A DNA stretch of 64,000 bases from positions 3,486,001 through 3,550,000 of the forward strand of contig NZ_CP126115.1 in assembly GCF_030123505.1 (NCBI RefSeq). Direction: 5' to 3'. Each line of letters begins with the position of its first letter. Position 1 is the stretch's first letter. Source of the stretch: Neobacillus sp. YX16 (GTDB taxonomy: Bacteria > Bacillota > Bacilli > Bacillales > Cytobacillaceae). Below are positions 1,099-58,696 of this stretch, piece after piece. A program made the position numbers and the translations under genes. The notes under the pieces were generated by a model. It did no database searches. It had not been told where the DNA came from and saw nothing but the letters and a program-made list of their open reading frames with translations.

Positions 1099-1255
1099 TA
1101 TAATATAAATATGAGTATGAACATAAAATAAAAGACCGACATGGTGCAACATGTCAGGTCCTGCAATAGACGGTCCCCTTAAAAGGGTTGACTTGTTAAT
1201 GAGATTAAATAATCCACCTGAGACTGCAAAACTCAAGGGTGGATTATTTTTTTTG
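1099..1255 (+). ncRNA. Candidate antisense antitoxin RNA (RatA-like arrangement)
   Basis: A TATAAT box at 1099-1104 would start a plus-strand transcript near 1111. The transcript begins with a strong hairpin (GACCGACATG paired with CATGTC-GGTC, 1134-1160). It ends at the hairpin 1208-1248 followed by eight T, which lies over the 3' end of the toxin gene on the other strand. The two RNAs therefore overlap tail to tail, as in the txpA/RatA pair of B. subtilis. The transcript is inferred from promoter, structure and terminator; it encodes no evident protein. Confidence 0.5.
1208..1254. terminator. Bidirectional terminator shared by toxin mRNA and antisense RNA
   Basis: AATAATCCACC (1208-1218) pairs with GGTGGATTATT (1238-1248). 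A T-run follows on the plus strand. On the minus strand the same hairpin lies just past the toxin stop codon. Confidence 0.75.
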
Positions 1256-1327
1256 ACTAAACGTTAATACGGCTACGATTAAACTAGCAAACCCAATCAT
1301 AATCATAAACGTTTCGAAAATCGTCAA
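1244..1327 (-). CDS. Putative holin-like type I toxin (27 aa)
   Basis: The minus strand from a TTG start at 1327 encodes a 27-residue peptide: MTIFETFMIMIG, then FASLIVAVLTF, ending SQKK. This is the pattern of the small holin-like toxins (PF16935 type; the TxpA/BsrG group has a similar start). It has a short amphipathic start, one hydrophobic span and a basic tail. A strong GGGGGTG ribosome binding site lies 6 bases upstream, and a TATACT -10 element sits at 1397-1402. In these systems the peptide damages the membrane and an overlapping antisense RNA silences it. The fit of peptide and overlapping RNA is good, but toxicity is inferred. The gene is shorter than usual annotation cut-offs. Confidence 0.65.
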   Translation of the reverse strand: MTIFETFMIMIGFASLIVAVLTFSQKK

Positions 1328-1396
1328 ACAGCAACACCCCCTTTCTAATGGGAGCATGCCAACCGCCCTTGAGACAACCTTATCTATTGCCATTTA

Positions 1397-5403: not shown

Positions 5404-8400
5404 TTAATTATTTTGCTCCAATGCCTGGTATACCGCCATCATATCTCGTTTATTTAACTCGCGGATACGATTGAAAATGGGAATGTCACTAACTGCATCG
5501 GTAAGTAAGTTTTCAGCAACAAGCTCTTTTACTGTACCCGTGAGCCATGTTTGGACATCAATACCTTCGACGATTTCCTTTCGACCTTCGTCATTAATCC
5601 CGCTCGCATGACAACTTACACATGGAACAGATAGTTTGTGGACTCCTTCATGGAGACCATCTTCGGAAATGACTTTCTTTCCATTACAGAACGGACATTT
5701 ATGAGCGGCTTTAATTTTATTAATTTGAGTAACAATTTTTTTGTAGCCAAACGCCTCATAGACATACGTTAGTTTTTTGTATTTGCCATTGGTGAAATAT
5801 TTATCTATAATCGTTTCTCTGGTTTCGGTAATTGCGGAAAAATCACAAATGGTAAGTAGATTTTTGCTGCTTATGTCTTCGATATTGTTTCTAATTTTAT
5901 CCCAGAATGGTAAGGCATTTTGTAAAACCACTTCATAGCCGACAAAGCTTGCTAGTTCTAGTTCAAGCATCTTCAACGCTACTTGTGTTTCCCTAGGCAA
6001 TAAAGATACATCCTCAGTAAGTACCATATCTCCGCCAACAATAGCTTTAAGCTTTTCGAGTTCTGGTAAATTCCCTACTGTTTCGATAGCCTGATCAAGT
6101 GGCATTTGAATAATCTCACGAATATCACTTTCGCCAAATTTTAGTTTCTTGTGATGTTTTAGTACAGTTCCCTGGCAAATTGGACAGGTAATCATCTCTT
6201 TCGATTCTTTCATCTGCTCTTTAATAATCGATTTCGAAATAAACATATACCGACCGATAATGAGATTAAAGCCTTCCCACGTTCTCTGTGCCTTGCCCGC
6301 TTTATCGTAGAAGGACTTTTCCCAATATCCATATAAAAATGTATGCTTTTCTGCTTCTGTCATATCGTTAAAGCTCTTACTTATATCCTGACCCAGCTCA
6401 TTCTTGATCTCATCAAATAGGAATTGCAATTTTGAATATTGATACCATTTTAAAACCTCCATCACATCTGGATGTAAGAATCCATCCCAGAAAGGCACTG
6501 TTTTATCTTGGATCACAACATCAATATCAAACTTTTCGATTACTCTGCGACCCGAACAGCATGGACAATGATTCTCTTGATGGTAGAAATCAAAGCTTCT
6601 TGTATCTTTATTGGTGTGATGTGCAGCTATGATATGATTAATCAAGCCGCCAATTTCATAAAGAAAACTATATTGACTATACAAATGTCTTTCAAGGTCA
6701 ATGGCAATAACAGGTGCAATGGTGTCTGTTTCGTATTCGCCATAAATCAAACGGGCCATTGATGATAAGCTTTTTAAAATCCCGCCTTTATAAACGTTTT
6801 CTGCATTTTTAAAATAACCAATTTGGTTTTCTTCTACGTAGTTAATGCCCTGTTGCATATTGAGAGTAGAAGATATTTGGAAGGAAGCAGCATGAACATT
6901 ACTAGATTTATCACGATAATAATCATCATGACTTAAAACATCGAGATGATGTACAGGCTCCACCTGTCTTTTTCCAAAATCAACAATATAATCTGAGCTA
7001 TCCAGCATATAGGCATTGTGTTCGATCATCATAATGGAGACAGATTCATCCTGCAGAATCACCCTAACACTATCGATAAATTGGTTTAGGATGTTTTGCG
7101 ATAACCCTTTTGAAGGCTCATCAAAAATAAACAGTGTATGCGGATTCCTAGTGTTAGCAAACAGTTCTGAAACTAAATGTACACATTGAAATTCACCTGT
7201 CGATAAAGTTTGCGTCTTTCTCTCTAATGTTAAATAACCAAGACCAAGCTTAATTAATAGGCTCAAGCGTTTATGAGCAATGTCTTCATTTGGCAGCTCA
7301 TCAATGATATCTTCAATCGAACGCTGAAAAATATCATCAATATCTTCCCTGTATTTTGTGAGTTTTCTTTTTATATCAAGAAAGGTCGCAACGGTTGAAC
7401 GGCTGGTAATCGATTGGTTTCGATCCTGGCCTACGATTACCAATTTGTCTTTTGGATAACGCTTTAGAAAATCCTTAGCAATACATTCATTAACAAGCGT
7501 GGATTTACCACTTCCAGATTCACCCGTAAATGTGACAAGTCTGTTTTTCGGAATCTGAATTTCAGCCATTTGGATATTACGGAAGTAAAGATCTTTAAAT
7601 TGGTAATATTCTGTTGGCATAGACGGATTTCGTTCCCAGAGAATTGGTTTTGGACGTGGAGATTCTTCTACAATTTTACCTCCGTATTTACCACTCCCCG
7701 GACCAAAGAACAATTGTTCATCGCTTACATCAAGCACCGTGTCAGAATGGTCAATGAGCCAGATTTGATTCTTAAAGCCTAATTCTCTTATCTGATCCAA
7801 GATTTTCAATAATGTTTCGTGATCAAGACCCACGGAGATTTCATCAATAATAATAACTGTGTTTTCACTTGCAGCCATGAATTCAGCCAGGTAAAGCCGT
7901 GTTACTTCTCCACCAGACAAGGTACCCATGATCCGGTTTAAGGTTAGATACCCGATATTCATATTGGCAATATTTTTGAGAATATGTATTTTACCTTCAC
8001 TAAGATGTAAATCTTCAGCAAGTGAAAGAATGGATTCAATGCTTAAGTTGTTGATGTCGGAAATACTATGTGGCTGCTCGAATAATTCAAGCTTATGCTG
8101 CTCAACTTCTGGATTATAACGTCGGCCCTTACACTTTGGACATTCGTTATTTTTGGTCGTACCGCGTCCTTTACAATCTGGACACCATCCTAATGCATTA
8201 TTAAAAGAAAATACCTCTGGAGAAAGATTATATTTTTCCGCAAGCCTCTCGCGTATCTCTTTAAAAACACCCGTATGTGTTCCAATAGTGGAACGTGGAT
8301 TAGAAGATATAGATGATTTACCGAGGAAAAGGACTAAAGGCATGTCCTCCATCTTGATCGCACTGAAGTTCGTCTCCATGATGTTAGAAAACAGATACTG

Positions 8401-8574
8401 ATATTCAGCCTTTGGCAATAAGGAAACAAGGCGCTTCTTGGATTCCTCCCCTATCGTTTGACAGAAAGTCGTTTTACCAGACCCAGACAAACCCGCAATT
8501 CCCAATGATTTATCTACGGGTATGGAGGTATCTAATTTGTTGATATTGTTGGCAATTAATGAATTAATTTTCAA
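5404..8574 (-). CDS. UvrA-like ABC ATPase with a long zinc-finger C-terminal extension
   Basis: A 1056-residue protein with two UvrA-type ABC ATPase heads in its first 540 residues. Walker A motifs are GLSGSGKTT (28-36) and GESGSGKST (351-359), signature motifs LSGGE (219-223) and LSTGE (457-461), Walker B IIIDE (241-245) and LFIFDEP (481-487). A CxxC pair (131-134, 145-148) forms the usual UvrA zinc module. The long insert that carries the UvrB-binding domain in true UvrA is missing between Walker A and the zinc module. Residues 560-1056 are unusual: further CxxC motifs near 670, 797, 960 and 985, and a degenerate signature-like stretch (LLPRETQVAL, 858-867). It is therefore a non-canonical UvrA relative, perhaps for DNA protection or drug tolerance, rather than the excinuclease subunit. 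Start is TTG with GGAGAGG upstream. Confidence 0.75.
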   Translation of the reverse strand: MKINSLIANNINKLDTSIPVDKSLGIAGLSGSGKTTFCQTIGEESKKRLVSLLPKAEYQYLFSNIMETNFSAIKMEDMPLVLFLGKSSISSNPRSTIGTHTGVFKEIRERLAEKYNLSPEVFSFNNALGWCPDCKGRGTTKNNECPKCKGRRYNPEVEQHKLELFEQPHSISDINNLSIESILSLAEDLHLSEGKIHILKNIANMNIGYLTLNRIMGTLSGGEVTRLYLAEFMAASENTVIIIDEISVGLDHETLLKILDQIRELGFKNQIWLIDHSDTVLDVSDEQLFFGPGSGKYGGKIVEESPRPKPILWERNPSMPTEYYQFKDLYFRNIQMAEIQIPKNRLVTFTGESGSGKSTLVNECIAKDFLKRYPKDKLVIVGQDRNQSITSRSTVATFLDIKRKLTKYREDIDDIFQRSIEDIIDELPNEDIAHKRLSLLIKLGLGYLTLERKTQTLSTGEFQCVHLVSELFANTRNPHTLFIFDEPSKGLSQNILNQFIDSVRVILQDESVSIMMIEHNAYMLDSSDYIVDFGKRQVEPVHHLDVLSHDDYYRDKSSNVHAASFQISSTLNMQQGINYVEENQIGYFKNAENVYKGGILKSLSSMARLIYGEYETDTIAPVIAIDLERHLYSQYSFLYEIGGLINHIIAAHHTNKDTRSFDFYHQENHCPCCSGRRVIEKFDIDVVIQDKTVPFWDGFLHPDVMEVLKWYQYSKLQFLFDEIKNELGQDISKSFNDMTEAEKHTFLYGYWEKSFYDKAGKAQRTWEGFNLIIGRYMFISKSIIKEQMKESKEMITCPICQGTVLKHHKKLKFGESDIREIIQMPLDQAIETVGNLPELEKLKAIVGGDMVLTEDVSLLPRETQVALKMLELELASFVGYEVVLQNALPFWDKIRNNIEDISSKNLLTICDFSAITETRETIIDKYFTNGKYKKLTYVYEAFGYKKIVTQINKIKAAHKCPFCNGKKVISEDGLHEGVHKLSVPCVSCHASGINDEGRKEIVEGIDVQTWLTGTVKELVAENLLTDAVSDIPIFNRIRELNKRDMMAVYQALEQNN

Positions 8575-12002: not shown

Positions 12003-13583
12003 TTAACACCACAAACCTCCCAATAACCAAGGACGATTTCGATAGGGACCAATCGGAATTTGAATTAAGCTGGTTTTTCCTTGTGGGTCCATCTTGTAAA
12101 GTTCATCACACAGGTTGGAATCATATCCCAGGAGCGGGTGCCCCCCCATTCCACTTGCTGCTGCCAATAAGAGTAATCGTTGCACGAGCATCCCTGCCTC
12201 CATTTGTTGGATTCGATATCCTCTGTATCCGAGTGTAGTTTTATAATAATCCTTAACTCCTGTTACATGTATGCAGAGTGGCACTTGGAGCAAATTTACA
12301 TTATATAACGACATACCAGATTGCAGTAGGAGTCGATGATCTCCTAGATGGACCGGACGTAATGCATGGGCAGTGCTGTCATATTGATACGCACCATTAG
12401 GAATTCCTTCAACATTATACAAACAGACATTCAGTGACACACGCGGCTTATGCTTCTGATGGACAACCTCCAAATCATTTCGATACAAAAAGGAATCCAT
12501 TGCCTCGTGTAGCAGATTTGCCAGTTCGACTTGACTTACCTTTCCCAAAATGAAATCCATATCTGGAGAAAATCTCTTTCGGCAAACAGACCCCAAATCA
12601 TACGACAACCTCTCTGGATGTGGAAGAGCTACCGCTTTACCCTCACAATTCCCATTCTCCTTTGCCTCGATCAATGGAAACAAAGTTGTAGAATCCAGCA
12701 TGGACGCTTCATTTAACTTCGTTAACATCGGATACTCTTTAACCCTCTGTGACCGAACGTACTGGTTTGGTTGAATCTGTTTCAATTCTCTGCACAACTC
12801 CGCTGCAGAAACTATTCTGTCCTTTTCGCTTCCGTTAGCTGACCAAATGGTAGGTTCAACCGATAGGGGGATGACCGAATAGACGGTCTCCTCCTTCTCA
12901 GATAAACCAAGCAAATGATTCATGGCCCGATCTAGAAATTGGAAGTATACCCCCGTTTCGAAGCCAAACCTTTTCGATACTTCTAACAACTGTCCCATCA
13001 ACACACCTGCATCTAATCCCTGCAGTCTGTAGGCAAAGTTATTGTATTTAAAAAAATTTTTCCAAAACATGGTCGATACAAAAACCGTCCCAAAACATGC
13101 TGAAATGTCACATCGATTACCAAGTGCCCTGGCAATATAGGAATCAAAATTTCCTTCCCGCAGCAATACTAAGCGATGGTGTGCCACATCATAATGATAT
13201 ACCCCATTTGGCAAATCCTCGATTTTTAAATAAATGTATAATTCGTTTGGATACAGCGCTCCACCCGAGGGAGCAAACCTTCTGTACGATTGCATGACTT
13301 CTGTATGGTCTGTATCATCCAAGCTAAAGACAGATTGGCTAAATTGAGTAAGGCCGTAAACATACCAAAGGAAATGCCCGATTATCCGCTGGTCAGGCAT
13401 GAAGGGCTGCTTCAGTTCATCAAGTGTCAGTGGTACTTCTATGGATAATGGTACAACTGGTAATCCGCGGTATAGCTTATAAGGAAGTGGTTTATCCTCC
13501 CAATCCACATCCCAATTTGGAATGCTTGCCTTCTCAATATCAAAATGTAAATTGTGCAAAAACTCTTCTAGACTCATACTCAA
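12003..13583 (-). CDS. SagB/ThcOx-type azoline dehydrogenase, double domain
   Basis: 526 residues, about twice the length of a simple SagB. Two nitroreductase-fold regions appear in tandem: residues about 60-240 (RRFAPSGGALYPNELYIY, then GLDAGVLMGQLLEVSKRFG) and about 340-520 (NVCLYNVEGIPNGAYQYD, then QMEAGMLVQRLLLLAAASG). In such enzymes FMN oxidises thiazolines and oxazolines to aromatic thiazoles and oxazoles. It is the last gene of the bacteriocin operon, 18 bases after the YcaO gene, with AGGAGGGATTGAGT before ATG. The domain pairing matches enzymes of the thiazole-bacteriocin clusters of Bacillus. I did not verify which half keeps the FMN and base residues. Confidence 0.85.
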   Translation of the reverse strand: MSMSLEEFLHNLHFDIEKASIPNWDVDWEDKPLPYKLYRGLPVVPLSIEVPLTLDELKQPFMPDQRIIGHFLWYVYGLTQFSQSVFSLDDTDHTEVMQSYRRFAPSGGALYPNELYIYLKIEDLPNGVYHYDVAHHRLVLLREGNFDSYIARALGNRCDISACFGTVFVSTMFWKNFFKYNNFAYRLQGLDAGVLMGQLLEVSKRFGFETGVYFQFLDRAMNHLLGLSEKEETVYSVIPLSVEPTIWSANGSEKDRIVSAAELCRELKQIQPNQYVRSQRVKEYPMLTKLNEASMLDSTTLFPLIEAKENGNCEGKAVALPHPERLSYDLGSVCRKRFSPDMDFILGKVSQVELANLLHEAMDSFLYRNDLEVVHQKHKPRVSLNVCLYNVEGIPNGAYQYDSTAHALRPVHLGDHRLLLQSGMSLYNVNLLQVPLCIHVTGVKDYYKTTLGYRGYRIQQMEAGMLVQRLLLLAAASGMGGHPLLGYDSNLCDELYKMDPQGKTSLIQIPIGPYRNRPWLLGGLWC

Positions 13584-13601
13584 TCCCTCCTAGTGATGCG
13601 C

Positions 13602-15548
13602 TTATGGAAACGGATGCGGATGCGGATTAAGCTGTTCAGCGGTCAGTGGTTCTTGCGAATATCCAAGTTCCATAGGGACCCTGAATACCCTATCCAGCCC
13701 AGTTACGCGAGTAAGGTGATGTCCAAATGTCATTGGCAGCATCCCCGGAATCAGCACTTTTACGCAATACAATTCGTTTCGGGCCGTTTCCGGAGTCGTC
13801 TGGTCAACCACAATGACATCGAGATTTAATCTACGAAACACTTGAACTATATCCTGAAGATCATCGGTAAGATCTAAATGTGTTGACTTCCACTTAAATT
13901 CCTCATTAAAAGTTCGCAATGGACGACGATCGTCCAGCAAAAACTGCAGGCGCTCTTCTGCTTGCGGCAAACCGTACAGCATTCCATGATCATCCATTTG
14001 CTGCACCAAGGTAGAATCCTGCAGCATTCGAACATATTCCTCCTGGTTCGCCTCTAATTTCTCATCCAATGACAGCATCATACCAGCTAACTCGTGAACC
14101 GCCGTTTTCACTGCCCGTACTGGGTCCAAATGAGATCCGGCCGCACAAATAAGATTTATCCCTTTTTCCTTTCTGTTCTTCGCTATGGCCAAGATACTTG
14201 GAATTCCATGCTCCATCGTTGAGTTATACAAATGTAGATCATATTCCGCGACTGCACGCATCCGTTCTATCATTAACTGAAGCTCTTGGTCTTCAATGGA
14301 GGCTGGATCCAGACGTGGGAGGGGCATCTGCGCGTACCACGTCATCAGGAACGAATCACGTTCCACCACTTCCAAAATACCGTAGAGAATGGCCTCTTCT
14401 AGACTTCCGCCCAACGCACATCCATTAGAAGTTTCATAGACAAATCCTCGTGATCCCGAGCCCAAGCTATAATAAGCAAGCAGCTCTGGAACCAGAATCG
14501 GACGCTCTTGTAAAAACGAATATCCCCATACCCAATCAATCGGGCGATCTGGATCAAATTCTGTAAATGGAAAACCAGGTCTCTCATACTGTTCTTTTTC
14601 GTGCACACCAACCTCGATTGGATTGAGTGCTTGCTTTTTCAAATGATTATAACTGTCATGAACCACTGTCCGTTTTCCACGAGGCTCAAGTCCACAGTAC
14701 CGCTCCAACCCTTCTAAAATGGCCGTCAATTCACTAACAGCGAATGAGTTTGTACGGCCTGCTGTTCGTTCGTCCCCCTCGAATAAAGGCAAATTGACAC
14801 TTACATCAGCAAATGTGTGCACGAGGTTAACCATTTTATCATTCAAAAGGCCTGTTCGTTGATCAAGATAGTCATTAGCGAGAACCTCATTCAGGTCATC
14901 TAACGAACGGCTGCGATAACTGTCGCTGGTAACCTTCGGACTTTGCTGCAGAGAAATTCGAGCCATCTCTGGTGTATCTTCAGGTAATGAACTACAAACC
15001 TGACACAAGGGGACTGGCAGAAACCTGTGCCAGGAACTCTTCAATGTTTTCAGATTGAGAAAAAATACCTTTTCTTCAGATTGGGCCTGATTACCTCTAA
15101 TAATCTTTTGGACCTCAGCCAGTAATAGGTGCGCCAAGTGAAGAAGACTCGTACGTGTGGCCCAGGGTTCCTGCTGCATTTCTCCTGTTAACTCTAACCT
15201 CTTTTGTATTTCCCACATCTCTCTACGGTCGTGTCCTGTCATAAGACGCCTCATATCTGTACATTGTGAACAACCTTGTGTACCCGGACGAACAAGCGGA
15301 CCTATTACGCCCTCTCCAAATGAAACAAAACCTCTTAGCCAAGGAGTATGGGTTCGATAAAACACCTCTTCTGCTTTTTGATGAACAGAGGGATTCCATG
15401 CATCATGTAAAACCAATGCCAAATCAATCCTTCCGGGTACGATTGCCCCAAAATCGGTTTGGCGAAATACCAAGTATTGTGATGAAAGCTCCTTACACAT
15501 GTGGTCTGCCAGCAGTCCCTCTCCTACAACCAACATGACAGCACTCAC
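13602..15548 (-). CDS. YcaO cyclodehydratase of the bacteriocin cluster
   Basis: 648 residues. The N-terminal 200 or so form a leader-recognition and ThiF-like part (MLVVGEGLLADHMCKEL, a CSQCTDMRR motif and a CQVC motif). The rest is a YcaO domain that uses ATP to activate peptide amides for Cys/Ser ring closure. The C-terminus NPHPHPFP is the proline-rich PxPxP end typical of azoline-forming YcaO proteins. GTG start at 15548 with GAGGAGG; its GTGA overlaps the TGA of the upstream gene by 4 bases, so translation is probably coupled. It works with the products at 15545-17464 and 12003-13583 on the precursor at 17633. Confidence 0.88.
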   Translation of the reverse strand: MSAVMLVVGEGLLADHMCKELSSQYLVFRQTDFGAIVPGRIDLALVLHDAWNPSVHQKAEEVFYRTHTPWLRGFVSFGEGVIGPLVRPGTQGCSQCTDMRRLMTGHDRREMWEIQKRLELTGEMQQEPWATRTSLLHLAHLLLAEVQKIIRGNQAQSEEKVFFLNLKTLKSSWHRFLPVPLCQVCSSLPEDTPEMARISLQQSPKVTSDSYRSRSLDDLNEVLANDYLDQRTGLLNDKMVNLVHTFADVSVNLPLFEGDERTAGRTNSFAVSELTAILEGLERYCGLEPRGKRTVVHDSYNHLKKQALNPIEVGVHEKEQYERPGFPFTEFDPDRPIDWVWGYSFLQERPILVPELLAYYSLGSGSRGFVYETSNGCALGGSLEEAILYGILEVVERDSFLMTWYAQMPLPRLDPASIEDQELQLMIERMRAVAEYDLHLYNSTMEHGIPSILAIAKNRKEKGINLICAAGSHLDPVRAVKTAVHELAGMMLSLDEKLEANQEEYVRMLQDSTLVQQMDDHGMLYGLPQAEERLQFLLDDRRPLRTFNEEFKWKSTHLDLTDDLQDIVQVFRRLNLDVIVVDQTTPETARNELYCVKVLIPGMLPMTFGHHLTRVTGLDRVFRVPMELGYSQEPLTAEQLNPHPHPFP

Positions 15549-17464
15549 GTTAATCCCTCCTCTTGAACCAATACCCCAAATATCCCTGCCAATCCCTCTT
15601 TGAAAAATGGTTCTAGTTCGATTTCATATACCAACAGCTGCTTCCCGTTCCGTTCCAAGATTTCTATCGCATTCAGTAGGTTCTCGGATGGTCTTCTCTC
15701 TTCACAGGCAGGGATTTCAATGCTTAGCGGCACTTTTTCATCCAGAATCATGGATGACACCTCCAGGGATCGTGCCATAACGAATTCCTCTTCATTTTGC
15801 ACATTGAAAATTGCTTGTTGCAGAGCATTTCGTAATGCCATTGTGATATTCAAATCGACACTGCCATACCATCCATCGTCGGTACCAATCCACACAACCG
15901 GGAATCCACACACTTCCTCGCTAATTCCTATAGTCGGTGCTCCCCGCAACGTCTTTAGTGCCTGCAAATAATACTGACAGCGTTTATCTTCTACCATACT
16001 TAACTCCACAGGGAAGACAGAATACTCTTCTTCAAGGCTTTGTTTGATTAACTCCTCGTCTAAGAATCTTTGTAATCCCCGGCAAACACTTTCCGAGAAT
16101 GTTTCACCTGCTCCCACCTCCACTTCGGGAGGTAGATCGAGCGCTCCGACTAGTTGTGATGCATAATTTTCAATTCCGGACAAACCCGCTTCCCTTCTTG
16201 CCTCCTCATGTGTCAGACCTGTACAGACAATTTCACCCAATAGTTCAGCGGGCCTATATGCCAATGGGTTGACTGGCTGAACACGGCACTGAGCCAATGG
16301 CAGCTGCTTTAAGTCACCCTCCTCCCAAATGTGAAAAATTCCGGATACCTCAGATGTCAAATGGTTAAAGGAAAGGAGTAATTTACCCGGATCTCCTCTT
16401 TCGGTTCCTTGTGCTAATCGCTTATCTATATCTTCAACCAATCTAGAAGATGTTTGTCCTGTCACCAGCGGATGAGGCATAAATGAATGCCAGTTTCCTT
16501 CTAACGTTTCTAAATCTAGAAGATAAAATTGATTCTTCTGTTCCTTTTCGGTCACACCCGTAACATCTTTAAACAATTCAAATACGATGACATTTGCCAG
16601 CATGGCTAAAGGTGTCAAAGAAGGAGCATTATCTTTCTGTTCTCTTAAGAGAGCCCCTTGATGAATACGTCGCCATGCAGACTCCCAGTCGGCCTCTGAG
16701 TCTGAATGTACTAACGGACCCGCTAAACCCGCCTGCTCTAAACATATAGCAGGGAGAAACACTTTCTTCTCTTCCTTGCTAACCCTATGTAGAAGTCGGA
16801 GTTCCTCTACATCATCCTGTTCTGACACATATAAAATATAATCAAACGGTTTCACTATTTCCTCCCAAGAACTGTCGCCCTGCTTGTTTAGTGTGACCTC
16901 CTCTATCTCCACATCAGGGTCGGTTTTACGGGCATGTGCCACGAGTTCCATCAACCGCTGTCTATTGGTCTGATCACTGGCAGTAATCAACATTTGGAAC
17001 CGGGGCAATCCGGAATCAAGTAACGCCGCAGCCAACGAAACAAAAAAAGGACCAGAGCCAACTGCTAACACTTTTGTTTGACGATAGTTCTGAAAACGGA
17101 AACCACCTGAATCAAGCAAATTATCCACAAATTCAATTTGAGAGGCATACTTTTTTAGAACCTGTTCCTTCAATTGATGCGGACGGTCTTGGCTCACATC
17201 TCGAACAAACCCATTTCGATAAAGAGCTTCTGCAATTTCAAACACTCTATCTGAGTATGCAGCCGGTAAACCGTTTGTCAAATACTCCAAGGTGTACTCG
17301 CCATTAAACATGGGGATCAGCTTTTCAACCCATTGATCGATCATACTGCCTTCCATACGGAACGAGCTTACATTGTTCCGAAAAAACACACCATTGTTTG
17401 GATCAGGGAGAAAAAACGTGTCCCTTTTCACTTTCAGACGCATAGAAGGGTTCATATTCGTCAT
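15545..17464 (-). CDS. Thiazole-containing bacteriocin maturation protein
   Basis: 639 residues, first biosynthetic gene after the precursor. It matches the 'putative thiazole-containing bacteriocin maturation protein' type found beside YcaO genes in Bacillus. The N-terminal part (1-110) looks like a RiPP recognition or E1-like winged helix segment (MNPSMRLKVKRDTFFLPDP). It is followed by a Rossmann-like stretch (VLAVGSGPFFVSLAAALLDSG, about 130-150). No adenylation active site is evident. It probably recruits the leader peptide to the cyclodehydratase. The ribosome binding site is GGAGGAAACCA. It is separated from the precursor gene by an attenuator-like hairpin at 17554-17582. Confidence 0.8.
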   Translation of the reverse strand: MTNMNPSMRLKVKRDTFFLPDPNNGVFFRNNVSSFRMEGSMIDQWVEKLIPMFNGEYTLEYLTNGLPAAYSDRVFEIAEALYRNGFVRDVSQDRPHQLKEQVLKKYASQIEFVDNLLDSGGFRFQNYRQTKVLAVGSGPFFVSLAAALLDSGLPRFQMLITASDQTNRQRLMELVAHARKTDPDVEIEEVTLNKQGDSSWEEIVKPFDYILYVSEQDDVEELRLLHRVSKEEKKVFLPAICLEQAGLAGPLVHSDSEADWESAWRRIHQGALLREQKDNAPSLTPLAMLANVIVFELFKDVTGVTEKEQKNQFYLLDLETLEGNWHSFMPHPLVTGQTSSRLVEDIDKRLAQGTERGDPGKLLLSFNHLTSEVSGIFHIWEEGDLKQLPLAQCRVQPVNPLAYRPAELLGEIVCTGLTHEEARREAGLSGIENYASQLVGALDLPPEVEVGAGETFSESVCRGLQRFLDEELIKQSLEEEYSVFPVELSMVEDKRCQYYLQALKTLRGAPTIGISEEVCGFPVVWIGTDDGWYGSVDLNITMALRNALQQAIFNVQNEEEFVMARSLEVSSMILDEKVPLSIEIPACEERRPSENLLNAIEILERNGKQLLVYEIELEPFFKEGLAGIFGVLVQEEGLT

Positions 17465-17553
17465 TGGTTTCCTCCTTAGCCGAAGCTTTTTCTCATATTT
17501 ATCATCACTATCATCCTATGTATCGTAATTTGTCCCTTATGTTAATTGTTGTA

Positions 17554-17582
17554 GTGAAAAGCCCCTACAATGTTGTAGGGGC
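17554..17582 (-). terminator. Attenuator between precursor and modification genes
   Basis: GCCCCTACAA pairs with TTGTAGGGGC around a 2-base loop and is followed on the minus strand by only TTTTCA. A leaky terminator of this kind would make the precursor more abundant than its enzymes, a common arrangement in RiPP operons. Confidence 0.75.
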
Positions 17583-17632
17583 CCTTCACCTCTTCATATG
17601 CAATCGGAGTTTTCGTTAGAGATTGAAAACCA

Positions 17633-17974
17633 TCAACCGCCGCAACGATGGCCTCCGCCACCACAGCGATGACCGCCTCCGCAATTGTGTCCTCCACAGC
17701 GATGACCGCCGCAACGATGGCCTCCACAACGATGGCCTCCGCAGTTAAAACAATTAAAGCAATTGAAACAATTAAAGCAGTTAAAACAGCTAAAGCAACT
17801 AAAACATCGGCCAATACCGCCAATACCGCCAATACCACCAATACCACCAACACCGCCAAAACCACCAAATCGAGCTGGGTCATTATAGTACATGCTCGGG
17901 TCATACGGAACTGCCTGGGTCGCTTGGAAATCTCCAAGACTTAACCCCTGGAGTTGACTTTGGAAATCATTCAT
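17633..17974 (-). CDS. Heterocycloanthracin/sonorensin-type bacteriocin precursor
   Basis: 113-residue precursor from the ATG at 17974. An earlier in-frame ATG at 17980 is only 2 bases from GGAGG and so unlikely. The leader (MNDFQSQLQGLSLGDFQ...) matches the heterocycloanthracin/sonorensin leader. Then come a Gly/Ile-rich spacer (GGFGGVGGIGG repeats) and a core with 14 Cys in two blocks: eight spaced by F-S or F-N (CFSCFSCFNC...) and six as GGHRC or GGHNC repeats with growing Gly runs. YcaO/SagB enzymes next door would convert Cys (and two Ser) to azoles. The purely tripeptide CF(N/S) block and His-rich GGHRC block are the features to compare with relatives. The repetitive DNA suggests slippage-driven change in length. 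Confidence 0.9.
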   Translation of the reverse strand: MNDFQSQLQGLSLGDFQATQAVPYDPSMYYNDPARFGGFGGVGGIGGIGGIGGIGRCFSCFSCFNCFNCFNCFNCFNCGGHRCGGHRCGGHRCGGHNCGGGHRCGGGGHRCGG

Positions 17975-18212
17975 TTTCATTACCTCCTTATATATTTAAA
18001 CAAGGGCAGCAGCAACTTGAAATTAGAACAGAACAAACTTGAAAGTAGATAAATACCCTGCTTTTTAAAAACCTTCCCCAACAAAATATGTACATTGGGT
18101 GGGTATTGCTACTAATACAAAAGCCTATTTTTAAAGGTTTCGTTGAAAAATCCATTCGTATATTCTATCTTTAATCATTTTTCCGAAAAGGAATAAATCT
18201 TTTTCCAAAAAA
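17975..18212. other. Leader and promoter region of the bacteriocin operon
   Basis: It holds the GGAGG before the precursor and AT-rich sequence upstream. I cannot assign the promoter with confidence. No gene seen. Confidence 0.4.
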
Positions 18213-45366: not shown

Positions 45367-47464
45367 GTCGAGTAGAAAGGAACCTCTCTACCTTACGGTA
45401 GATTGTGTTCCTCCCCCTCACAGAACCGTGCTTGCGCTATTAACGCACACGGCTCCTCCAAATTATCATTCACAGAATATAGCTAATTTCTTTTCTTAAA
45501 TCATAAATATTCACTTTGATTCTTGGTGAAGGTAGTGGATATTTATTAAGAAAGAGCCTGAATTTGTCCCAAGTAAAGGATTTCCTTTGGCTTCTTCTGT
45601 TTAGCCATTTGTATAGTAAGCATTCGATTTTCTCTTTAAAGTTGTTAACAGTTTGGGTATTATCTGTGATGCAATAATAGTTGTAGTAACCTATTAGTGA
45701 GCGTTTAAATCTATCCATAATCATATGAATATCTTTATTCCTATTATTCTTCAGCCATTCTTTAGTTCCTTTTAGTTTGCCTTGGACTTTCTTCCTGCTC
45801 GTTTTCCGCTTTACTCGGAATTTCCCGTGCTTACTTATCCCACAATAGTGAGTAAATCCAAGGAAGTCGAAGGTACCCGGTTTGCCAATTCCGTCACGTT
45901 TTGCATTCTTCTCCGCAAACCGTCCGAAGGGAATTATTTTAGTTTTATCCTCGGCTATTTCTAGGTTAAATTTCTTTAATCTCGCTTTTAATGAATGAAA
46001 GAATTGCTCGGCTTCACTTTTATTCTGAAAACAACAAACAAAATCATCTGCGTATCTTACTATATACGCCTGGCCTTTACATTGTTTCTTAACCACTTTT
46101 TCAAACCATAGATCAAGAACGTAATGGAGATAGACATTGGCTAATATCGGAGATATCACTCCACCTTGCGGTGTACCATTGTCTGTCTTGTATTTCTTAC
46201 CTTCCTCCATGTATCCACCTTTAAGAAACCTGCTGATTAGTCTCAGTAGGTTAGTGTCAGTGATTCGGAGTTTCAAGAATTCCATCATCCATTTGTGGTC
46301 AACGTTATCAAAGAAGCCTTTAATATCTACATCTACTACATAGCTTATTGCTCTCTTCTCAATATAATGATTCAGTATTTTCAGTGCATCGTGGCAGTTT
46401 CTATTTGGACGGAACCCAAATGAGCAGTCTAGAAAGTCATTTTCATAGATGGCATTTAGTATTTTCGTAATGCCTTTTTGAACAATTTTATCTTCTTGTT
46501 CCGGTATTCCCAATGGTCTCATCTTGTTTGAGTTGAGCTTTGGGATATACATTCGTCTTACTGGAACAGGACGATAACTTTTGCTTTTGAGCCTACTTAC
46601 TAAGTCCTCTATGTTTTCTTCTAAACTTTCATCGTATTGCTCTTTAGTAGTACCGTTAATCCCAGTTGCCTTCTTATTGGGTAGTTCAAGATGGCATTGA
46701 ATTAATGCTTCCTTATCTAAAAGATGTGCAAGAGATGTAAATTTCATTTTAGGATTAGATTTTGCTAATTCTGCTATCCTTAGTAGTTTTGTTTCCATTT
46801 ATTTATACCTACCTCTGTGTGTAGTAAATGTGTCCCTAGTAAGGGTGATAACTGGTAGCTAGCCTTTCCTCCATCGGCATTACCCAACTTCATTGGTACT
46901 ACGCTGCTATCCGACTCCCTACACGGCATTTGGTTTCCTCGCTTTTTATCACTTGTAGACCATACTCTTCTATTAAAATAAGAAAAGACCGGTAGGGTCT
47001 CCCGAGTTGCCGTATCATATCAATGTGTAACGTGCCAAGGTCTCTGACCCCAGAGAGGTTTTACCCTTCTTGCCATTAACGAAAGATAAAATGTAGCTTT
47101 CTGAACGCAGGTATGTCATCAGCCCTCTCGATTTTCTAACATTATGGAGCTCAATCCCTTCAACCCTTGGGCTTTCGGCCCGCCACCTAACTGTCTACGC
47201 TTAAAGACTAAAGTTACCTTTAGTCCTTCAAGACTCGCTACGAGCGAATGGCTAGTTCTTACTCGACGGGAATCCCACCCGCTATATGATACGACCTATG
47301 CTCGGCCGCACACCTGCCAGTTACTTCAATAAGAAAAGCCGCAAAAATGGCAGCCCGATCTTCCGCAAAAGCACCCGTTCGTAATATAAGGTTAGCCAGA
47401 TTTTTCTGGTTGACCTTTTTTCATATGGTCTTATGATTACGGTAGTCGGGGTAGAACGTCGCAC
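45367..47464 (-). mobile_element. Group II intron 1 (with maturase)
   Basis: On the minus strand the element starts GTGCGACG at 47464, the standard 5' GUGYG sequence. It holds a maturase gene and ends with a domain V hairpin (GAGCCGTGTGCG, then GCACGGTTC; near 45417-45455), domain VI, and CTACTCGAC at about 45367. Length about 2.1 kb. It lies antisense to the IS110 gene that follows and just inside that gene's leader. Exact ends are inferred from consensus and could be a few bases off. Confidence 0.8.
45470..46798 (-). CDS. ltrA: Group II intron reverse transcriptase/maturase
   Basis: 442 residues. Reverse transcriptase blocks are present: KSYRPVPVRRMYIPK, RPLGIPEQEDKIVQKGI, FGFRPNRNCHDAL, VVDVDIKGFFDNVDH (catalytic Asp), GTPQGGVISPILANVYL, and YADDFV (catalytic YADD). 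A C-terminal maturase X domain follows (LIGYYNYYCI). It has no HNH endonuclease, so it probably uses DNA replication primers for mobility. It differs clearly from the class C maturase at 56278. It acts with the intron RNA that surrounds it. Confidence 0.95.
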   Translation of the reverse strand: METKLLRIAELAKSNPKMKFTSLAHLLDKEALIQCHLELPNKKATGINGTTKEQYDESLEENIEDLVSRLKSKSYRPVPVRRMYIPKLNSNKMRPLGIPEQEDKIVQKGITKILNAIYENDFLDCSFGFRPNRNCHDALKILNHYIEKRAISYVVDVDIKGFFDNVDHKWMMEFLKLRITDTNLLRLISRFLKGGYMEEGKKYKTDNGTPQGGVISPILANVYLHYVLDLWFEKVVKKQCKGQAYIVRYADDFVCCFQNKSEAEQFFHSLKARLKKFNLEIAEDKTKIIPFGRFAEKNAKRDGIGKPGTFDFLGFTHYCGISKHGKFRVKRKTSRKKVQGKLKGTKEWLKNNRNKDIHMIMDRFKRSLIGYYNYYCITDNTQTVNNFKEKIECLLYKWLNRRSQRKSFTWDKFRLFLNKYPLPSPRIKVNIYDLRKEISYIL

Positions 47465-56203: not shown

Positions 56204-58089
56204 ATCGAGTAGGAGGGGGTGACTAACCCCCGACCTCTCACACCACCGTACGTACCGTTCGGTATACGGCGGTTCTATTAAGATTGACGTAAAGTTTCAT
56301 AACGGTTATATAGACTTTTCAACCCTCGTTGACTCCAATATGAGTTATCGAGGGTTTTGTGTAATATTGGGCTACAGGCGATTCTCCAGTATTTCTTTCT
56401 GGAGTTGCCCCATTCGTGCGCCTTGTAACCAGGGACGCCTAAACCAATCAGTTTTCTAACTCTAGTTTTAGATTTCTTCCACTGTTTCCATTCGCACATT
56501 CTTAGCCTTCTTCTTATCCATTCATCAAATTCTTTGAATTTGCTTGGAGTGTCCGCTAAAGCGAAGTACCCGCACCATCCTGTAAGATAGCGGTTTAACA
56601 TTTCAATTCTTACCTCAAGTGGGATAGGTTTTGACCGAGAGGTAATTTCTCGAATCTTCGTCTTAAAGCGTTTAATGCTTTGTTTCGCTATTCGCACCTT
56701 CGGTTCTTTATTAAATGTGAAACTGAAACCAAGAAATTTCCGTTTCCACGGACGGTCGATTGCCGACTTATCCCTGTTTACCTTCAATTTTAGTTTCTGC
56801 TCAATAATCGTCGTAATGGATTCCATCACACGTTCCCCTGCTTTTAATGACTTAACATAAATGTTGCAGTCATCCGCATAACGGACAAACTTATGCCCTC
56901 TGGCTTCCAATTCTTTATCTAATTTATCAAGAATTATGTTTGAAAGTAGTGGACTGAGAGGTCCCCCTTGCGGAGTACCTTCCTCCGTTGATTGTACGAC
57001 CCCATTAAGCATTACACCTGATTGAAGGTATTTCCTGATTAGTTTGAGAAGAATGCGGTCTTCAATTCTCTTAGCGAGTATTCCCATCAGTATGTCATGA
57101 TTAACCTTATCAAAGAATTTCTCTAAGTCCATATCAATTACCCAGCGGTAACCTTCTTTGATATAACCCTTTGCCTTTCTTACCGCATTATGGGCGCTCC
57201 TGTTAGGTCGGAAACCATAGCTGTTTTCAGAAAATGTTGGATCAAAGATTGAGGTTAATACTTGGGCGATTGCCTGTTGGATGAAACGGTCTGTCACAGT
57301 CGGTATGCCTAAAAGCCTTATCCCTCCGCCTGGTTTCGGGATTCCGACACGGCGAACAGGAGAAGGTTGATAGTTACCTGTTCTCAAAGTTTCCCGAAGG
57401 GAATCCCAGTTTTCATAGAGATGTCGTCGTAGGAATTTTACGGACATTCCATCTATGCCGTGACTTCCTTTGTTCTGCTCTACCCTTTTTAGGGCAGTTA
57501 AGAGATTTTCCCGTGATAGAATTAGTTCCATTAACATGATGTTATCCTTTCTACGTGAATGAAGGTTCTGTTTATGCCGACTTTTGCTCCACCCTCCTAG
57601 AGTCCCCAACGGATTCACCGCTTCCTCCTTTAGGTAGGTCCTTTCGGATTGTCTGTGTTCAATGCAATCACCGAATGTGCAGACTTCATTCTTTCTTAAT
57701 AGTTCAGTCCTTCCCATTCTTTCTCGAGTAAGAATGGTACTATGACTTCTGCTGACTTCTGATTGTTCAGCTATCCATTGCTAGATAGTTTACCAAGTGT
57801 ACTTGGCTTATCAATCAGATCTCCCCGGGTAAGAGTACAGTCTTTCCCTCCATCTATCTGCTTCATTTACTCTGTACCACCTTCGGCAGTAAGGACTTTG
57901 TTTTGTGTTGCAAACTCATCCAATGATACCTAGCCTTATATGAAGTTCGTGTTCCTCAGACCGGAGGTTTGCCGCTCGCTTCCTTCAGATTCCGCGTCAC
58001 CGCGGACACCCTTGCGTTAGGCTAACCATTACTACTGCCTTCATGGTTCGGGACTTTCACCCTAGAGACTGCACCCATGCCGGGCGCAC
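56204..58089 (-). mobile_element. Group IIC intron 2 (with maturase), inserted at a terminator
   Basis: On the minus strand it starts GTGCGCCCGGCATGGGTGCAG at 58089 and ends CTACTCGAT at 56204. Domain V (GAACCGCCGTAT..., near 56230-56275) and domain VI (GGTCGGGGGTTAGTCACCCCC) precede the end. Length about 1.9 kb, usual for class C. The 5' exon is the terminator hairpin of the response regulator gene (58095-58121), the preferred target of class C introns. Confidence 0.9.
56278..57537 (-). CDS. ltrA: Group IIC intron reverse transcriptase/maturase
   Basis: 419 residues from the ATG at 57537 (AAAGGATAACATC upstream; a longer frame to 57717 runs into intron RNA structure and is doubtful). Opens MLMELILSRENLLTALKRVEQN, then GSHGIDGMSVKFLRRHL, the GFRPNRSAHNAV and GTPQGGPLSPLLSNIILD motifs, and YADDCN for catalysis. 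The maturase X domain is at about 320-370. It has no endonuclease domain, as is usual for class C. It acts with its own intron RNA. Confidence 0.93.
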   Translation of the reverse strand: MLMELILSRENLLTALKRVEQNKGSHGIDGMSVKFLRRHLYENWDSLRETLRTGNYQPSPVRRVGIPKPGGGIRLLGIPTVTDRFIQQAIAQVLTSIFDPTFSENSYGFRPNRSAHNAVRKAKGYIKEGYRWVIDMDLEKFFDKVNHDILMGILAKRIEDRILLKLIRKYLQSGVMLNGVVQSTEEGTPQGGPLSPLLSNIILDKLDKELEARGHKFVRYADDCNIYVKSLKAGERVMESITTIIEQKLKLKVNRDKSAIDRPWKRKFLGFSFTFNKEPKVRIAKQSIKRFKTKIREITSRSKPIPLEVRIEMLNRYLTGWCGYFALADTPSKFKEFDEWIRRRLRMCEWKQWKKSKTRVRKLIGLGVPGYKAHEWGNSRKKYWRIACSPILHKTLDNSYWSQRGLKSLYNRYETLRQS

Positions 58090-58094
58090 AACAT

Positions 58095-58121
58095 AAAAAG
58101 CATCCATTGTGGATGCTTTTT
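58095..58121. terminator. Terminator of the response regulator gene; class C intron target
   Basis: AAAAAGCATCC pairs with GGATGCTTTTT over ATTGT. On the minus strand ATGTT separates it from the intron GTGCG. Confidence 0.9.
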
Positions 58122-58630
58122 CAGCCTGTCGGCAACTTTATTTTATCCATAATAGATGTTAGATAGTTTTTGACAGATCCTTTATTGATACTTTGAGAAG
58201 ATTTCTGGGAGAGCGGATCAGCATTTGCATCACTGATATCCTCATCCATGAGTTCTTTAGAATAAATTCGCTTACCATCCATAATGCTCCGAATAGAAGA
58301 GGCTAACTCCTCACTCGGATTGTCCTTAAGTAAATATCCTCTCACATCCGCTTTCAATGCACGTTCAAAATATCCTGGTCTCGCAAAGGTTGTTAGAATA
58401 ATCACTTTACAGCCATCGAGCTGTAAAAACTCTGCAGCCTCTAGTCCACTTTTTTCAGGCATTTCTATATCCATAATACACACGTCCGGCTGTAATTGGT
58501 TCACAAGCACTATAGCCTCTTCCCCATTGACTGCAGTACCAACAACTTCGATATCATCTTCAAGATTCAGCAGATTGCCCATGGCCTCTAACAGCAGTTC
58601 CTGATCCTCTGCGATAACAATTCGAATCAT
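58121..58630 (-). pseudogene. desR: DesR-like response regulator with damaged HTH
   Basis: 169 residues from the ATG at 58630 (AAGGAGAGATAGG upstream). The receiver domain is intact: MIRIVIAEDQELLLEAM, PDVCIMDIEMPEKSGLE (phosphorylated Asp), VIILTTFARPGYFERALKADVRGYLLKD. The C-terminal LuxR-type HTH is broken: after NADPLSQ it jumps to KSSQSINKGSVKNYLTSIMDKI and ends KLPTG. The stretch that would hold the first helices (about 20-25 residues) and the last residues are missing. The partner kinase desK is also absent between this gene and des. So the DesKR thermosensor has decayed. Confidence 0.75.
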
Positions 58631-58671
58631 TTTCCTATCTCTCCTTATCAGGCTGCTGCTACAAATCATGC

Positions 58672-58696
58672 AGAGACTCCCCAAAAGGAGAGTCTG
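58672..58696. other. Hairpin between des and the response regulator
   Basis: AGACTC and GAGTCT with CCCC/GG pairing inside, no T-run. It may mark the end of des mRNA or the site where desK was deleted. Confidence 0.4.

Follow-up and report, generated by a model that had tools for sequence, protein, structure and literature searches.

We examined a 64,000-nucleotide stretch of Neobacillus sp. YX16 DNA (contig NZ_CP126115.1, positions 3,486,001 to 3,550,000 of the forward strand; here called the window) and found an operon for an azole peptide of the heterocycloanthracin/sonorensin type. Heterocycloanthracins have been annotated since 2009; what is new here is a pair of conserved promoter-like elements, which we named E1 and E2, around the operon. 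The sequences of these elements suggested that the operon is probably wired to the mother-cell sporulation programme. We also lean toward the view that the whole family represents a developmental mother-cell peptide, whose maturation enzymes would be produced first under sigma-E and SpoIIID, whose precursor would be produced last under sigma-K and GerE, and whose product would be placed on the spore or released at lysis. The relevant features are as follows.

17633..17974, minus strand: precursor peptide of 113 amino acids, with a heterocycloanthracin-type leader and a 14-Cys core (TIGR03601, 53.2 bits; cut-off, 35)
17560..17583, minus strand: terminator-like hairpin between the precursor and F genes (fold; two-sided stem changes in relatives)
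15545..17464, minus strand: F protein, ocin-ThiF-like, predicted to bind the leader, 639 amino acids (TIGR03693, 755.5 bits; cut-off, 561.9)
13602..15548, minus strand: fused cyclodehydratase (C-domain remnant plus YcaO), 648 amino acids (TIGR03604, 428.9 bits; cut-off, 219.25; TIGR03882, 162.5 bits)
12003..13583, minus strand: SagB-type dehydrogenase with two domains, 526 amino acids (TIGR03605, 201.5 bits; cut-off, 78.4; two matched stretches)
18070..18130, minus strand: E1, putative promoter element of the precursor gene (conserved 5' of precursors; layout as in the cotD promoter of the genus)
17506..17541, minus strand: E2, promoter-like element of the maturation genes (conserved 5' of F genes)

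The operon is real and complete: the precursor, F protein, fused YcaO, and SagB genes all lie on the minus strand between positions 17974 and 12003, and all four proteins scored above the NCBIfam cut-offs (TIGR03601, TIGR03693, TIGR03604, and TIGR03605), that is, beyond chance. A first-pass annotation of the sequence had described a complete, single-stranded operon with overlaps or short gaps and a hairpin after the precursor, and the coordinates and family matches agreed with that description. Specifically, the F and YcaO genes overlap by 4 bases, 18 bases separate YcaO from SagB, and the hairpin has 10 base pairs (about 17583-17560) in a 51-nucleotide stretch that folds at -19 kcal/mol (z, -2.33). 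The stem varied on both sides among relatives, as judged by eye and uncounted.

Conserved elements upstream of the precursor and F genes

An alignment of upstream regions revealed E1 and E2 as two strongly conserved noncoding blocks. Our tests of both elements covered the taxonomic family, an order-wide sample, and other orders, all outside the B. cereus group, in which the precursor and the enzymes lie apart (PMC2674419). E1 consists of a GerE-type box, AAATAGGCTTTT (18130-18119), a -35 GCA (18109-18107), a 16-base spacer, and a -10 sequence, CATATTTT (18090-18083). According to PMC517825, sigma-K and sigma-E promoters have the -10 sequence in common, differ at -35 position 4 (C and T, respectively), and have best spacings of 15 and 12, each plus or minus one. 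E1 and E2 fit these rules: they differ from one another at -35 position 4, C versus T, and E1, with its C at this position and its -10 CATAnnnT, fits the sigma-K rule.

In the taxonomic family, E1 was present within 260 bases of 107 of the 109 precursors found by rule, and it ended about 50 to 120 bases ahead of precursor starts, those of orphan precursors included. When models from the taxonomic family were applied to the order-wide sample, E1 was found in all 28 new precursor loci, 24 of which came from other families. Among 142 unique sites, 138 carried RCA-N15-17-CATANNNT and 113 carried the box RWWTRGGYNNYY, which we take to be the GerE consensus. The 122 equal-length unique E1 sites included 119 with the sigma-K pattern, 94 with the GerE box, 94 with both, and none with the sigma-E pattern; conversely, 88 of 89 equal-length unique E2 sites had the sigma-E pattern and none had the sigma-K pattern. 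Column permutations never reached the E1 or E2 pattern counts (0/5000). In 45 diverse E1 sites, the eight invariant columns were the -35 CA, one spacer C, the -10 CATA, and its T.

Of 89 unique regions upstream of precursors, 78 had the strict composite of GerE box and sigma-K pattern; none of 570 other genes in the same loci had it. A sequence-only model of E1, when applied to six genomes, detected one strong site in each (57-63 bits), located at a precursor, and the next-best site scored 20 bits. A search with the exact E1 pattern across a species collection yielded 93 stretches. The 80 stretches listed, all from bacteria with Bacillales-type names, held 83 matches: 63 were accompanied by a precursor according to our rule and 18 more by eye, and 2 were at a contig end. 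A second precursor rule found 74. Even among distant precursors that lacked E1 (20 with a placeable start out of 21), the GerE box was found upstream of 9 (shuffle mean, 0.67; 0/2000 shuffles reached this number). In the leader after the -10 of E1, conserved GAGAG and CTCTC blocks could, as judged by eye, pair as a 5' stabilising hairpin.

E2 is composed of a CATA (17541-17538), a SpoIIID-like sequence, AGGGACAAAT (17537-17528), and CATAGGAT (17520-17513). Of 80 unique regions upstream of F in the taxonomic family, 72 carried the E2 pattern, mostly 35 to 50 bases before the start, and none of 570 other genes did; 88 of 90 unique sites had the sigma-E pattern, ATA-N15-18-CATANNNT. A loose scan of the window's own genome for the sigma-E/SpoIIID-like arrangement gave 5 hits versus 2 for the reversed pattern, and the other hits were not near recognised sporulation genes. 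E2 resembles a sigma-E promoter that carries a SpoIIID-like box, an assignment weaker than that of E1. The element (window 17506-17545), like its counterparts in relatives, closes with four consecutive stop codons (TGA TAG TGA TGA); in P0022, a frame change in the core is apparently followed by read-through of an E2-like stretch.

Several observations weigh against these promoter assignments and the mother-cell control drawn from them. The consensus strings were picked with E1 and E2 already in view, and because the sites share descent, the E1 and E2 counts are not independent events. Two of the 109 precursors lacked E1: L050, the second of a tandem pair, whose upstream region is the first precursor, and L121, an orphan. 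The loose composite was found in 86 of 89 unique precursor upstream regions and also in 10 of the 570 other genes. Outside the order, the E1 model (E < 1e-5) picked up only 5 of the 26 precursor loci; in the 20 distant upstream regions, the sigma-K pattern was weak (3/20; shuffle mean, 0.76; 79/2000 shuffles reached this number). In the case of E2, WWRRACARNY, presumably the SpoIIID consensus, fits 26 of 90 sites, and of 40 distant F loci, 26 had any E2 hit, 17 had GACAAAT and the following CATA, and 6 had the -35 CATA. In the literature, we met the GerE string solely for PedR, a LuxR-type cyanobacterial regulator (available excerpts of PMC13421787), and no paper on GerE or SpoIIID by title turned up for the consensus strings. 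Sonorensin is reported to have been purified from culture and to kill by membrane damage (PMC4544038), which alone shows no spore-linked release. Finally, a loose GerE/sigma-K scan of the window's genome gave 8 hits versus 11 for the reversed pattern; thus, the loose pattern proves nothing alone.

Four of those eight hits were inside other open reading frames (ORFs), and two preceded genes read as iron-transport and Mur-ligase genes. Apart from the hit at the precursor itself, one further intergenic hit had the E1 layout and was located 23 bases before the drawn ORF start of a gene matching PF11122 (64.4 bits), the family of inner spore coat protein D, the cotD product. In B. subtilis, cotD is under the control of sigma-K and GerE. 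We used cotD, whose protein is unrelated to the peptide, solely as a promoter control. Matches were found in all 60 genomes of the genus, and the 30 best loci provided 29 unique upstream regions, all of which carried the GerE box, the sigma-K pattern, and the composite (shuffle means, 0.57, 1.33, and 0.21, respectively; 0/2000 shuffles reached the observed numbers). As judged from these patterns, E1 is laid out like a sigma-K promoter preceded by a GerE box, matching the cotD promoter of the genus in its box, -35, and -10.

Precursor core and maturation enzymes

A second ATG is located six bases upstream of the precursor start, at 17980. Because it lies very near the ribosome-binding site AAGGAGG, we preferred a precursor of 113 amino acids to one of 115. 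The length, the heterocycloanthracin-like leader, and the order of the core given in the first-pass annotation all held: block 1 places its 8 Cys strictly three residues apart (CFSCFSCFNCFNCFNCFNCFNC), and block 2 has 6 Cys in GGHRC, GGHRC, GGHRC, GGHNC, GGGHRC, and GGGGHRC, for a total of 14 Cys. It was for this three-residue spacing of Cys that the family was described (PMC2674419).

The annotation had also called this two-block, 14-Cys core unusual, and a comparison of core spacing among relatives led us to reject that idea. Many of the relatives (24 from a protein database plus the precursors of the fetched loci) likewise have a CF(S/N) block ahead of a GG(H)RC block, with numbers of repeats that vary, and the core of a same-species strain (locus L032) has 15 Cys. 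Other family members have the Gly block first or contain solely CGG or CGGMM repeats. When 63 precursors were sorted by rule, 21 were aromatic-then-Gly, 7 were Gly-then-aromatic, 25 were Gly only, and 10 were CFxC only. The core layout of the window precursor is one of several family styles.

Some genomes showed other arrangements of precursors. G127 (loci L054 and L112-L114) had seven precursor-model matches and one F match, so a single set of enzymes may act on many cores. The orphan precursors L113, L114, L116, L119, and L122 have CGGMM-type, Met-rich cores and are preceded by E1, with no F, D, or B gene in the fetched stretch. The orphan of L121 (5014-5415, minus strand) is 133 amino acids long, contains 8 Cys, has an extended Gly/Tyr tail, and lacks E1.

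The maturation enzymes retained the motifs expected of an azole operon of the heterocycloanthracin type, as the first-pass annotation had proposed. Residues 12-90 of the F protein match a solved PbtF chain (E, 7e-07), and its closest named relative is a Neobacillus niacini protein (90% identity). The YcaO protein is a single chain with a shortened C domain: TIGR03882 matches residues 68-235, and TIGR03604 matches residues 264-648. In an alignment with TruD, LynD, and MusD, it retained the SNGxAxG...EEAI...E.VERD stretch, and its C terminus, NPHPHPFP, resembles the PxPxPF ends of TruD and LynD and accords with the PxPxP end noted previously. The two domains previously assigned to the 526-residue SagB correspond to the two TIGR03605 stretches. 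Domain 1 retained the FKY motif in an alignment with McbC, and the second domain has YKTTLGYRGYR, without FKY, where a solved relative aligns. The Lys-Tyr of FKY is the active pair in SagB-type dehydrogenases.

Distribution and neighbouring genes

Of the 193 genomes of the taxonomic family, 133 were matched by the precursor model and 133 by the F model (132 in each case above the cut-off; the same genomes, as judged by eye). In the order-wide sample, 61 and 76 of 299 genomes, respectively, were matched, so F without a found precursor exists; in a class-wide sample, the numbers were 42 and 50 of 250. All 36 class-sample genomes with F over the cut-off matched TIGR02846 at an E value of 1e-76 or better, a score expected of sigma-K or of its paralogue sigma-E. 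By hand count, 71 of the 250 genomes had no match at that level (best E values, 1e-19 to 5e-17), and G482 lies between the two groups. The 71 genomes included one F match (G645, 34 bits) and one precursor-model match (G531, 22 bits, with internal stops). Because the F-bearing genomes carry sigma-K/sigma-E-level matches and the genomes lacking such matches have almost none of the family, the azole peptide family is confined to spore formers in the class-wide sample.

To survey neighbouring genes, we named by eye the ORFs of at least 80 amino acids, up to six per side, within a few kilobases of 80 operon loci, the window's included. The constant unit was F-D-B with the precursor ahead. The available excerpts of PMC4603692 likewise describe only the cyclodehydratase, F, and B as common to all clusters. 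The neighbour cluster seen most often, named by eye as ABC-type ATPases, was found in only 16 of 80 loci at varying positions; thus, no neighbour was consistently linked, and no exporter or immunity gene was consistently linked within the few fetched kilobases. The earlier statement that the operon lacks exporter and immunity genes was supported. The exported bacteriocin that the first-pass annotation implied was not supported, given the lack of a consistently linked exporter and promoters that appear to point to the mother cell.

Three genes flanking the operon encode a patatin-like protein, a metallo-beta-lactamase-fold protein, and a protein without a match. A downstream ORF for a 1056-residue UvrA-like ATPase (window 5404-8574, minus strand; by eye) also has counterparts near three other operon loci. 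Elsewhere in the window, positions 1136-1390 (minus strand) match the BsrG RNA family (115 bits), which we take to be a type I toxin-antitoxin region. Two group II introns of different Rfam intron families, with reverse-transcriptase-like ORFs (by eye), lie at 45367-47275 and 56204-58006 (minus strand). Next to a group II intron and beside a fatty-acid desaturase gene, a short response regulator (58121-58684, minus strand) has an end that looks shortened (by eye).

A mother-cell peptide and its alternatives

The window operon resembles the heterocycloanthracin system (Haft 2009, PMC2674419; Cox 2015, available excerpts of PMC4603692) in its TIGR03601 leader, Cys-Xaa-Xaa core, F protein, truncated fused YcaO, and SagB, and in having no obligatory exporter. 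It differs in that the precursor adjoins its enzymes and in that its core is CF(S/N) then GGHRC rather than mainly CGG. A mother-cell promoter reading is absent from the text of PMC2674419 and was not found in the available excerpts of PMC4603692, and among the papers listed in our literature searches, none was met that links the family to sigma-K or GerE. Thiopeptides of the thiocillin and micrococcin type also share an F protein and a fused YcaO but differ in their dehydratase and macrocyclisation genes, none of which was recognised by eye among the flanking genes, window ORFs, or recurrent neighbours. The core repeats of sonorensin reportedly differ from those of the window peptide. By name, sonorensin of Bacillus sonorensis belongs to the same precursor family (available excerpts of PMC4544038), and the word thiazole is absent from the PMC4544038 text. 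The developmental lanthipeptides SapB and AmfS of Streptomyces are modified peptides made for a developmental stage; with their other chemistry and other bacteria, they offer an analogy only.

The promoter sequences, the operon layout, and the biochemistry of the family suggest the following order of events. Sigma-E with SpoIIID would switch on F-D-B first, and sigma-K with GerE would switch on the precursor afterwards, with the terminator-like hairpin separating the precursor unit from the enzyme unit. The F protein would bind the leader and pass the precursor to the fused YcaO, which would turn core Cys, and perhaps some Ser, into azolines that SagB would oxidise to azoles. The finished peptide would reach the spore surface or the surroundings via mother-cell lysis, with no need for an exporter or lasting immunity because it would be made in a cell that will lyse. 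According to the available excerpts of PMC517825, mother-cell lysis is a late, GerE-timed event. We infer this order, like the action of the two sigma factors with GerE and SpoIIID and the fate of the product, from the DNA sequence.

A related idea that shares the mother-cell step, and that we regard as a serious possibility though not the favored one, is that the peptide is a structural or protective component of the spore coat or outer layers, which would provide strength, shielding against light or oxidants, or metal binding, and would not be an antibiotic. The promoter layout in common with the coat gene cotD, the high frequency of the family among spore formers (the 133 of 193 genomes above), and the freely varying repeat number favor this idea. 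However, the precursor had no Pfam match at an E value of 0.01 and therefore no homology to coat-protein families, and sonorensin is described as bactericidal (available excerpts of PMC4544038).

We consider it unlikely that the product is a conventional azole bacteriocin of growing or stationary cells, with transporter and immunity genes encoded elsewhere and with E1 and E2 under another regulator. The family name and literature favor this explanation, as do the antibacterial activity of sonorensin (available excerpts of PMC4544038) and the up-regulation of a putative heterocycloanthracin/sonorensin member with other antimicrobials in B. cereus biofilms (available excerpts of PMC6962202). However, PMC6962202 also reports increased expression of sporulation genes at 24 and 48 h in these biofilms, so the up-regulation is compatible with mother-cell expression, although not proof of it. 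The match of E1 and E2 to mother-cell promoter rules and to cotD, together with the 80 loci lacking a consistently linked exporter, also argues against a conventional bacteriocin. Lastly, E1 is very improbable as a structured leader RNA or riboswitch in place of a promoter: E1 and the stretch just after its -10 are conserved, and the GAGAG and CTCTC blocks could pair, but no Rfam family reached the gathering threshold at E1, its invariant columns are promoter letters, and its layout is shared with cotD.

If the mother-cell reading is correct, a developmental picture would replace that of an exported vegetative bacteriocin and would account for the absence of exporter, protease, and immunity genes. 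The product would then have to be sought on spores and in cultures undergoing sporulation rather than in growing cells, and a widespread peptide family would shift from a secreted weapon to a part of the spore or a weapon of the dying mother cell.

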